Shown here: positions 41,278-43,707 of the stretch, one piece after another
How positions within the stretch are numbered: position 1 is the stretch's first letter
Layout of the letters: each line of letters starts with the position of its first letter
Source of the DNA: Tepidisphaeraceae bacterium
Lineage (GTDB): Bacteria; Planctomycetota; Phycisphaerae; Tepidisphaerales; Tepidisphaeraceae
Assembly: GCA_035998445.1 (NCBI GenBank)
Contig: DASYHQ010000032.1
Location: forward strand, 124,001-188,000
Length of the DNA stretch: 64,000 nucleotides
Direction: 5' to 3'
Translations under genes and position numbers: made by a program
The notes under the pieces: generated by a model
Told to the model about the DNA's origin: nothing
Databases searched by the model: none
What the model saw: the letters and a program-made list of their open reading frames with translations, nothing else

Positions 41278-41893
41278 TTAAGGCTCGATCGCATACACCT
41301 TCGCGCTGGCGGCGTAGGCGTTCACGTCGTGCTTGCGCACCAGATCGGCCAGGCCATCGTGAACGGACGACACCTCGGAACCGCAGCAAACGCTGCTGTT
41401 CGTCGCGGGGAGGAGGGTGAGCGGGGAGGACGTGACCGCCGGTGGAGCGCAGCAGGCGGATTGGTTGTCGACCTTTGAATAGGCGTTGAGATTCGCGCCG
41501 CTGTCGACCACGGCGACGTCTCTGAAACCGGTGTCGCGCAGGCGGTGATGTAGTTGGCAATGGGGATCGCGCCGGCGATGCAGCCAGCGTAGGCCACGAC
41601 GCTTTCGCGCAGGTCGGCCGGGAGTGGTGGCTTCAGCGCGATGTCGCTACCGCCACGCGACCGCCGGGCTGCAGCACGCGCGCGATCTCGCGGAAGACGG
41701 CTGACTTATCGGGCGCGAGATTGATCACGCAGTTGCTGATCACGACGTCTACGCTCGCCTCCGCCAACGGCAGGCGATCGATGGGGGCCAGGTGGAATTC
41801 CACGTTGGTGATGTTGCCGCGGGTGGCGATGTCGACCATGACGCTCTGCATCCCCAGCAGCGGACCGAATAGGCGGTTCAGATCGGATTGCAT
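41278..41893 (-). pseudogene. arsM: Remnant of an arsenite S-adenosylmethyltransferase gene (arsM)
   Basis: Three frames together read as the C-terminal half of ArsM. The first (from 41893) has [40 protein letters not shown] and [10 protein letters not shown] missing base near 41649 shifts to [20 protein letters not shown] and [10 protein letters not shown] second shift near 41545 leads to [20 protein letters not shown], the NQSACC Cys pair, and the C-terminal DVNAYAASAKVYAIEP. The N-terminal half with the SAM-binding GxG motif is gone; in its place lies the aro leader region on the other strand. The two frameshifts could be sequencing errors but the deletion cannot. The gene is dead; no ars operon partner is near. 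Confidence 0.85.
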
Positions 41894-41921
41894 TTGACTC
41901 CGGTCCGATCGGTGTTATAGA
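41894..41921 (+). promoter_or_regulatory. Sigma-70-type promoter of the aro leader
   Basis: TTGACT at 41894-41899 and TATAGA at 41916-41921 are separated by 16 bases. Transcription would begin at about 41927-41929, which coincides with the GTG of the leader peptide. It is the best promoter match I see in the window. Confidence 0.7.
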
Positions 41922-41928
41922 TAGAGCA

Positions 41929-42003
41929 GTGAAGCATTCGTTCGCCACGTTCTCGTTTTGGTTTAGCGGTTATTTTTATCCGCTGCGAAACTGCGCGTTC
42001 TGA
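41929..42003 (+). CDS. Aromatic-rich leader peptide of the DAHP synthase attenuator
   Basis: A 24-codon frame from GTG at 41929 to TGA at 42001-42003. The peptide begins MKHSFATFSFWFSGYFYP and ends with Phe. It holds six Phe (codons 5, 8, 10, 12, 16, 24), one Trp (11) and two Tyr (15, 17), nine aromatic residues of 24. The opening MKH recalls the PheL leader of E. coli. Codon choice mixes TTC and TTT. With the promoter at 41894-41921 the message would start on or within two bases of the GTG, so translation may be leaderless, as known for trpL of Sinorhizobium. Ribosome position on this frame would decide between antiterminator and terminator. Confidence 0.85.
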   Translation: MKHSFATFSFWFSGYFYPLRNCAF

Positions 42004-42045
42004 ACTGGCATTAAGTTGATATTGATCTACTGAGCCTCAGGACGC
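41995..42045 (+). promoter_or_regulatory. Antiterminator helix of the aro attenuator
   Basis: GCGTTCTGA (41995-42003, the last two codons and stop of the leader) pairs over nine bases, one of them G-U, with TCAGGACGC (42037-42045). This helix uses most of the 5' arm of the terminator stem, so the two are mutually exclusive. A ribosome waiting at the Phe/Trp/Tyr codons 8-17 would leave 41995-42003 free; one at the stop codon would cover it. Confidence 0.75.
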
Positions 42046-42062
42046 GGTCCTGGGGCTTTTTT
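42033..42062 (+). terminator. Intrinsic terminator of the aro attenuator
   Basis: AGCCTCAGGAC (42033-42043) pairs with GTCCTGGGGCT (42047-42057), an 11-bp stem with one U-G pair and a GCG loop, followed by a T run to 42062. It lies 29 bases after the leader stop and about 50 bases before the aro start codon. Confidence 0.9.
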
Positions 42063-42113
42063 CGTTTTGGGTTGTCCCATGTTTAGTTGGCGAGCAGCGA
42101 AGCGAGGTACGAA

Positions 42114-43139
42114 ATGATCGTCGTGATGAAGCCGGGCGCGACCGCGGAACAGGTCGAACATGTCGTGAGACTGGTGAACGAGATGAAGTTGAAGGAACAG
42201 GTGATCGTGGGATCGGAGCGCACGGTCATCGCCTGCCTTGGGGACGACCGCGCGAAGGACAAGGGCCGGCTGGAACTGGCCGGTGGCGTCGACAAGGTCG
42301 TGCCGATTCTGGCGTCGTACAAGATGGCGTCGTCGGAGGTGAAGAAGGATCGCACGCAGATCCCGCTCGGCGGCACGCTGGGTGGCGTGGTGGGTGGCGT
42401 GAAGGTGCCGGTGATCGCCGGGCCGTGCAGTGTCGAATCGAAGCAGCAGATCCTGGAGATCGCGCACGCCGTGAAAGAGGCCGGTGCCGTCGGCCTGCGC
42501 GGCGGGGCGTTCAAGCCGCGCACGAGTCCGTACGCGTTCCAAGGCTTGGCTGAGGAAGGGCTGAAGTACCTGGCTGAAGCGCGCGAGCAGACGGGCCTTG
42601 CGATCATCACGGAAGTGATGAGCATCGACCAGATCCCCGCCGTCGTGGAGTACGCCGACGTGATGCAGATCGGCGCGCGCAACATGCAGAACTACAATCT
42701 GCTGGCCAAGATTGGCCAGACGCGCAAGCCGGTGCTTTTGAAGCGCGGGCTGAGCGCGACACTCGAGGAATTCCTGCTGGCTGCCGAGTACATCCTGGCG
42801 GGTGGGAATTCGCAGGTCATGCTCTGCGAGCGTGGCATCCGCACCTTCGAGACGGATTACGTCCGCAACACGCTGCCCCTGGCGATCGTGCCTGAGCTTC
42901 ATAAGCGATCGCACCTGCCGGTGGTGGTCGACCCGAGCCACGGCACGGGTAAGAGCCACCTCGTGCCCGACATGTGCCGCGCCAGCGTCGCCGCCGGCGC
43001 CGATTCGCTAATTCTGGAAGTGCATGACGACCCGGAACACGCGATGACGGACGGCGCGCAATCTCTGAACCTGAAGCAGTTCGCCGAGGTGATGAAGAGC
43101 ATCAAGCGCGTCGCCGCCGCGGTGGATAGGGAAGTGTGA
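42114..43139 (+). CDS. aroF: 3-deoxy-D-arabino-heptulosonate 7-phosphate synthase, type I beta
   Basis: It condenses phosphoenolpyruvate and erythrose 4-phosphate, the first step to Phe, Tyr and Trp. The 341 residues comprise an N-terminal ferredoxin-like domain (1-70, [20 protein letters not shown]), the feedback-sensing domain of the Thermotoga-type enzyme, and a TIM barrel with [41 protein letters not shown] and VDPSHGTGK, the substrate and metal sites. The ATG at 42114 has GAGG seven bases upstream. The feedback domain and the upstream attenuator would give two levels of control by aromatic amino acids. The GNAT gene follows after one base, so the two are co-transcribed. Confidence 0.96.
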
Positions 43140-43140
43140 G

Positions 43141-43707
43141 ATGGCAAACGTGTCTTTCGAGCTGCCGGAGACGATTGAGACCGAGCGGTTGATCATTCGT
43201 CCACCCCGACCGGGTGATGGGGCAGCGGTGAACGAGGCGGTCCGCGAGTCGTTTGCGGAACTGCACCGGTGGATGATCTGGGCGAAAGAGGTGCCGACGC
43301 CGGAGGCGTCTGAGGAAAACGTCATGGCCGCCGTCGCGAAGTTCGCCGCACGTGAAGACCTGCGGCTGCACTTGTACGACAAAGCTTCGGGCGCGTTAGT
43401 CGGGTCCAGCGGGCTGCACGCGATTGATTGGGCTGTGCCGAAGTGCGAGATCGGCTATTGGATGCGGACGAGCCGCGCGGGTCAGGGTTACGCGACAGAA
43501 TCCGCGGCGGCGATTGCCGAGTTGGCGCTGGCGACGTTGGGGGCGCGGCGGGTGGAGATTCGTGTCGATCCGCTCAACGAGCGTAGCTGGCGCGTTGCCG
43601 AGCGCCTTGGTTTCACGCTCGAAGGTACATTGCGCAACGACGATCGCGGCCCGGATGGCCGACTGCGCGACGTGCGGATCTACGCGAAGGTGACGGCCGA
43701 TCGCTGA
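43141..43707 (+). CDS. GNAT acetyltransferase, RimJ/RimL type
   Basis: A 188-residue N-acetyltransferase of the RimJ/RimL branch, which acetylates N-terminal amines of proteins or small molecules. [20 protein letters not shown] opens the fold, [20 protein letters not shown] carries the acetyl-CoA pyrophosphate loop (Q-G-Y-A), and [20 protein letters not shown] then [10 protein letters not shown] are typical of the branch. The ATG follows the DAHP synthase stop by a single base, so it is probably part of the attenuated transcript. A link to aromatic synthesis is not evident from the fold. Confidence 0.9.

Follow-up and report, generated by a model that had tools for sequence, protein, structure and literature searches.

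In Escherichia coli, each of the pheL and trpL leaders responds to a single amino acid made by a terminal branch, and translation of both uses a Shine–Dalgarno site. The locus described here resembles pheL–pheA and trpL–trp in its parts and in its logic: there is a leader peptide, a hairpin of the pause type, an antiterminator, and a terminator. It differs from both in that the leader would control the entry step, codes for several aromatic amino acids, and has a start that is probably leaderless. A functional likeness exists with Corynebacterium glutamicum, in which the gene for DAHP synthase is subject to ribosome-mediated attenuation [aroR–aroF; Neshat et al. 2014, as described in PMC11802643 and PMC4046766]. 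The aroR leader contains Phe-Tyr-Phe and is reported to respond to Phe, not to Tyr. The two loci have in common a DAHP synthase gene preceded by a leader peptide that includes both Phe and Tyr, whereas the present locus belongs to another phylum, has aromatic residues including Trp at seven of its ten sensing codons, and has a codon hairpin and an antiterminator that are conserved across a family. Leaderless attenuators have been described in Actinobacteria: trpL, leuL and ilvL of Streptomyces lividans and Corynebacterium (PMC8079986, PMC5784534). These, and the rhizobial trpL, are similar to the present leader in having the leader open reading frame (ORF) at, or very near, the 5′ end of the transcript; however, they concern other genes and other amino acids and have a mapped start, whereas the planctomycete start is predicted.

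The original prediction held that ribosome-mediated attenuation of this gene had not been described in this lineage. As far as the literature was checked, the device is indeed undescribed in Planctomycetota and Acidobacteriota, although an earlier prediction is possible [Lopatovskaya 2010]; attenuation of a DAHP synthase gene as such, however, is already on record for aroR–aroF (PMC11802643, PMC4046766), and within the literature checked Corynebacterium is the one earlier case for this gene. The mechanism is not new; what is new is the wide distribution, the pooling of aromatic codons, and the conserved near-leaderless start.

The locus lies in a stretch of 64,000 nucleotides from a member of the Tepidisphaeraceae (Planctomycetota), referred to here as the window, and its features are collected in Table 1. 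The DAHP synthase gene is identified by its domain matches (PF00793, E 3e-73, and PF18152, E 7e-21, in Pfam; NF006421 in NCBIfam); the closest solved structures are 1rzm and 3pg9, and identity to the nearest named record, from a Phycisphaerales metagenome-assembled genome (L032), is 82%, in line with a planctomycete of Phycisphaerales type. Upstream of this gene there are a promoter, a short reading frame rich in aromatic codons, a hairpin, an antiterminator and a terminator, and comparison with relatives reveals that these elements and their spacing are conserved. The leader is very probably a ribosome-mediated transcription attenuator, which adjusts DAHP synthase according to how much charged tRNA for Phe, Tyr and Trp is available.

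Table 1. Features of the leader and of the gene it precedes; positions are counted from the first nucleotide of the window.
Feature	Position	Strand	Remarks
−35 box TTGACT	41894..41899	+	From sequence; TTGAC ~35–42 nt before the leader start in 18/19 aligned family loci
−10 box TATAGA, extended (TG at 41913–41914)	41916..41921	+	Predicted transcript start ~41927–41929
Leader ORF VKHSFATFSFWFSGYFYPLRNCAF	41929..42003	+	24 codons, GTG start, no Shine–Dalgarno site
Presumed sensing codons 8–17 (F S F W F S G Y F Y)	41950..41979	+	Most conserved part of the peptide alignment
Hairpin AGCGG-UUAUUUUUAU-CCGCU around the Tyr-Phe-Tyr codons	41965..41984	+	Presumed transcriptional pause hairpin
Antiterminator 5′ arm GCGUUCUGA	41995..42003	+	Overlaps the last leader codons and the stop; pairs with 42037–42045
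Intrinsic terminator	42033..42062	+	Stem 42033–42043 / 42047–42057; six T at 42057–42062
Second mini-ORF	42079..42117	+	Its TGA overlaps the DAHP synthase ATG (ATGA)
DAHP synthase gene	42114..43139	+	341 aa; ATG at 42114; DAHP_synth_1 and N-terminal ferredoxin-like domain

The proposed sequence of events is as follows. The transcript would begin with the GTG at 41929 or only a few nucleotides away from it. Ribosome loading would then take place at the 5′ end of the RNA without a Shine–Dalgarno site, while the hairpin at 41965–41984 probably holds RNA polymerase until the ribosome arrives. Where aromatic tRNAs are ample, the ribosome would proceed to the UGA at 42001–42003 and cover the antiterminator arm, the terminator at 42033–42057 would form, and transcription would end. 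Where they are scarce, the ribosome would stall at codons 8–17, leaving 41995–42003 free to pair with the nascent 42037–42045, so that the polymerase would read through into the gene; we infer that shortage of each of the three amino acids can produce such a stall.

Both helices required by this scheme exist at the positions first predicted. The terminator stem has 11 pairs, one of them G–T, and is followed by its T run; the antiterminator helix has nine pairs, one of them G–U, and forms when the entire leader is folded to minimum energy. The 3′ arm of the latter lies within the terminator, making the two structures mutually exclusive. Their behavior was followed by co-transcriptional folding, in which the RNA left free by a ribosome on a middle aromatic codon was considered up to the point just before the 3′ arm of the terminator. 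With the ribosome stalled in this way, at least 70% of the terminator 5′ arm is held by upstream RNA in 18 of the 19 family loci, and likewise in 18/21 loci of Acidobacteriota, 16/20 of other Planctomycetota and 4/6 of an anammox-type group; for shuffled leaders, the proportion is 20–31% (20% for the family). With the ribosome at the stop codon, no more than two of the 19 family loci have at least 40% of that arm held. When equilibrium folding is considered for the stalled ribosome, 10/19 family loci have the antiterminator as their state of lowest energy, and the complete RNA can favor the terminator. Because the equilibrium often favors the terminator, the switch must be kinetic, as it is in known attenuators. 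Folding and comparison together argue for the predicted logic, by which a stalled ribosome would free 41995–42003 and a ribosome at the stop codon would mask it.

The two helices have left different traces in evolution. Across 19 relatives, 93% of terminator cells are paired, and covariation is above that in all 500 shuffles. The antiterminator is near-invariant within the family and has no covariation beyond shuffles there, probably because its 5′ arm contains the constrained stop codon. Outside the family, the same pairing recurs with unrelated sequences, e.g., GAGUGG-CGUUGGUU / AACCAACCCACUC in Acidobacteriota. For the present locus, the duplex z is −2.1; of 74 loci, 48 have a duplex between the end of the leader and the terminator 5′ arm that surpasses the duplexes of shuffled leader (p ≤ 0.05; 12/19 in the family, 16/24 in other Planctomycetota, 2/6 in the anammox-type group, 18/23 in Acidobacteriota and 0/2 in Chloroflexota). 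Weak antiterminators are found at L006, L008, L062 and L183.

A further structure, absent from the original prediction and added here, is the codon hairpin at 41965–41984. In the family alignment, four of its six pairs have double compensatory changes; its covariation is 0.315 compared with 0.134 in shuffles, a value that 0 of 500 shuffles reach and below which all slid controls fall, and RNAalifold recovers the hairpin independently. Its arms are the conserved Gly and Pro codons that flank Tyr-Phe-Tyr, and its formation would pause the polymerase. The original prediction had pointed to relatives as the place to look for compensatory changes; these were found in the codon hairpin and in the terminator, and for the antiterminator it is the pairing that is kept elsewhere with different sequences.

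The 24-codon frame that had been read from the GTG at 41929 was confirmed with its six Phe, two Tyr and one Trp codons, seven of the ten codons at 8–17 being aromatic. All six Phe codons exist; however, the sixth (codon 24, 41998–42000) is probably not a sensing codon, because it forms part of the antiterminator arm and is frequently replaced by Ser in relatives. In the family leaders, Phe codons lean to TTT (54 TTT, 32 TTC), whereas the DAHP synthase gene of the window has 0 TTT and 5 TTC. The consensus of the family peptides is MxxxxAxFGFWFxGYFYPAxxxAS.

This consensus could be read in another way: the nascent peptide FGFWFxGYFYP could itself stall the ribosome, perhaps when an aromatic metabolite in free form occupies the exit tunnel, in the way that TnaC arrests the ribosome with tryptophan. 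The family motif is more uniform than mere aromatic content requires, and 16 of the 20 family leaders share a length of 24 codons, both of which would suit arrest by the peptide. However, the conserved Gly and Pro stand on two sides of a hairpin that covaries, which can account for their conservation, and the order and spacing of the aromatic residues change freely in other lineages (FYYFRYYYKRGG, YYRFWFYFTPP, FRFWF), which fits the sensing of codons. Arrest by the peptide is therefore very unlikely, and the attenuator that senses aromatic codons remains the preferred explanation.

The promoter TTGACT-16-TATAGA was checked base by base and is exactly where it had been placed; the TG upstream of TATAGA makes it an extended −10. 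The spacer between the boxes is 16 nt, and 7 nt separate the end of TATAGA from the leader GTG. A simple promoter scan did not list this promoter, because its −10 box lacks the final T. In 79% of the loci in the family and 89% of those in Acidobacteriota, the best −10 is 6–10 nt upstream of the leader start, compared with 12% in shuffles; the signal is weaker in other Planctomycetota (38% versus 11%), and in the anammox-type family (f55) no −10 signal was found close to the leader start. No Shine–Dalgarno-like site occurs within 18 nt of the leader start in any of the 19 family leaders or 18 Acidobacteriota leaders, and one precedes the DAHP synthase start in all 19 family genes. The fixed distance from −10 to start and the lack of a Shine–Dalgarno site at the leader make a 5′ untranslated region of 0 to ~5 nt likely, and the same two features support, at the level of sequence, the (near-)leaderless start originally proposed. 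Translation from the 5′ end of the transcript is likely to be conserved in the family and in Acidobacteriota. A near-leaderless start conserved in two phyla provides a testable model of attenuation by a ribosome that begins on the mRNA 5′ end, and the leader can also serve as a model for transcription–translation coupling in Planctomycetota.

Within the window, the combination of an aromatic-rich short frame and a terminator occurs at this locus only, among 606 overlapping tiles of 420 nt read on both strands, and none of 400 shuffled upstream regions of the family has the arrangement. Of 26 genomes in the family, 20 have a complete leader, which precedes the DAHP synthase gene wherever that gene shares the contig; the copy in G001, which encodes MSRRNATFGFWFSWYFYPPQTCAF, lies at the edge of a contig. 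Of the six genomes without a complete leader, three (G002, G016, G017) have a contig that ends within or close to the leader or the gene, two (G014, G022) are incomplete assemblies without the orthologous gene, and in G011 (L016) the device has been lost entirely. A terminator retained after loss of the frame would count against attenuation; this was mostly not seen, the frame, aromatic codons and terminator being kept in 19/20 readable family loci. A possible exception is G017 (L022/L172), where the terminator is present, the contig is cut at −188, and the remainder has no aromatic-rich frame. A covariance model built from 19 family leaders gives one strong match in each of the 20 genomes with a complete leader; a weak match in the window's own genome (G000:C13, E 0.0013) is a terminator after the gene for ribosomal protein L27 and is attributed to chance.

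Beyond the family, a strict scan that recovers 19/20 family loci finds the arrangement at 26/80 loci of other Planctomycetota (1/800 in shuffles) and at 16/32 of Acidobacteriota (0/640), the latter count rising on a looser reading. Planctomycetota of the family f55 (L139–L145), which appear to be of the anammox type, have their own version, with a conserved terminator (GCCCTAAAAC..GTTTTAGGGC) and leaders such as FYYFRYYYKRGG. The scan also returned 2/30 loci of one class of Chloroflexota; the candidates there (L072/L204, L224, L091, L216) are not claimed, and the two tested had no significant antiterminator. Among the DAHP synthase paralogues, one of nine gave a weak and unconvincing match (L152). 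The device offers a concrete rule for control of entry into the shikimate pathway in phyla where little is known of regulation.

No leaders were found at the family's trpE (PF04715) and pheA (PF00800) genes. A single attenuator at DAHP synthase, with none at these two genes, suggests that there is one pooled aromatic signal rather than separate ones. The fullest version of this idea is that one ancient device has been inherited with DAHP synthase since before Planctomycetota and Acidobacteriota split, sensing three aromatic amino acids at the entry step in place of separate controls at trpE and pheA, with a Trp-containing mini-ORF as a translational tier; taken as a whole, this is improbable. 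On a quick DAHP synthase tree, the presence of the leader needs 24 changes, at least 17 of them forced by well-supported branches, with presence labels taken from a scan at a fixed threshold, by which some leaders are overlooked (e.g., L051, L056, L104).

Distribution also bears on the suggestion that the terminator serves as an invariable 3′ end, giving a small RNA or a constant damper, with the short frame either incidental or having a product that acts in trans, as for rhizobial trpL. A terminated leader RNA of ~130 nt would arise in any case, and products of Sinorhizobium attenuators are reported to act in trans (PMC7298713). However, several lineages retain the frame, the aromatic codons and the antiterminator as a set upstream of DAHP synthase, which would be needless for an RNA acting in trans, and there is one copy per genome, at DAHP synthase only. 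This explanation, which would in any event be compatible with attenuation in cis, is highly improbable as a replacement for it. The notion of some other tRNA- or ligand-sensing RNA (a T-box, a riboswitch or a protein-binding antiterminator) can be dismissed almost entirely: all these classes have in common a terminator ahead of the gene and a helix alternative to it, but Rfam gave no match over 41880–42130 at E ≤ 1, including T-box, Phe_leader and Trp_leader, and only tRNAs over the whole window at gathering scores, and the conserved part is not an aptamer but a reading frame with synonymous variation.

Between the terminator and the gene, the mini-ORF at 42079–42117 suggests, from its position, translational coupling with DAHP synthase and possibly a second tier of control. 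A coupled mini-ORF that contains Trp precedes DAHP synthase in 11 of 21 family loci (e.g., L007, L011, L017, L019, L021, L006), and the type is also present at the distant locus L062. Mini-ORFs that overlap the DAHP synthase start frequently have a Trp-Arg motif, with their own Shine–Dalgarno site in several relatives, and TTGGCG is found within 75 nt upstream in 8/21 family loci, compared with 2.9% in shuffles.

The surroundings of the locus include a GNAT acetyltransferase gene (43141–43707), which follows the stop codon of the DAHP synthase gene immediately; because the two adjoin, they are likely to be on a common transcript, and the acetyltransferase would share the attenuator. Upstream, on the − strand at 41278–41893, is a divergent methyltransferase that seems to be split in two frames (86 aa, with another frame downstream); the gene may be broken, or the split may be a frameshift due to sequencing. 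No match was found among plasmid records. In another family of Phycisphaerae (L010, L013, L015, L039, L040), an ORF of 35–50 codons that ends in, or near, Leu-Trp lies between the terminator and DAHP synthase, with a weaker aromatic leader upstream of it.
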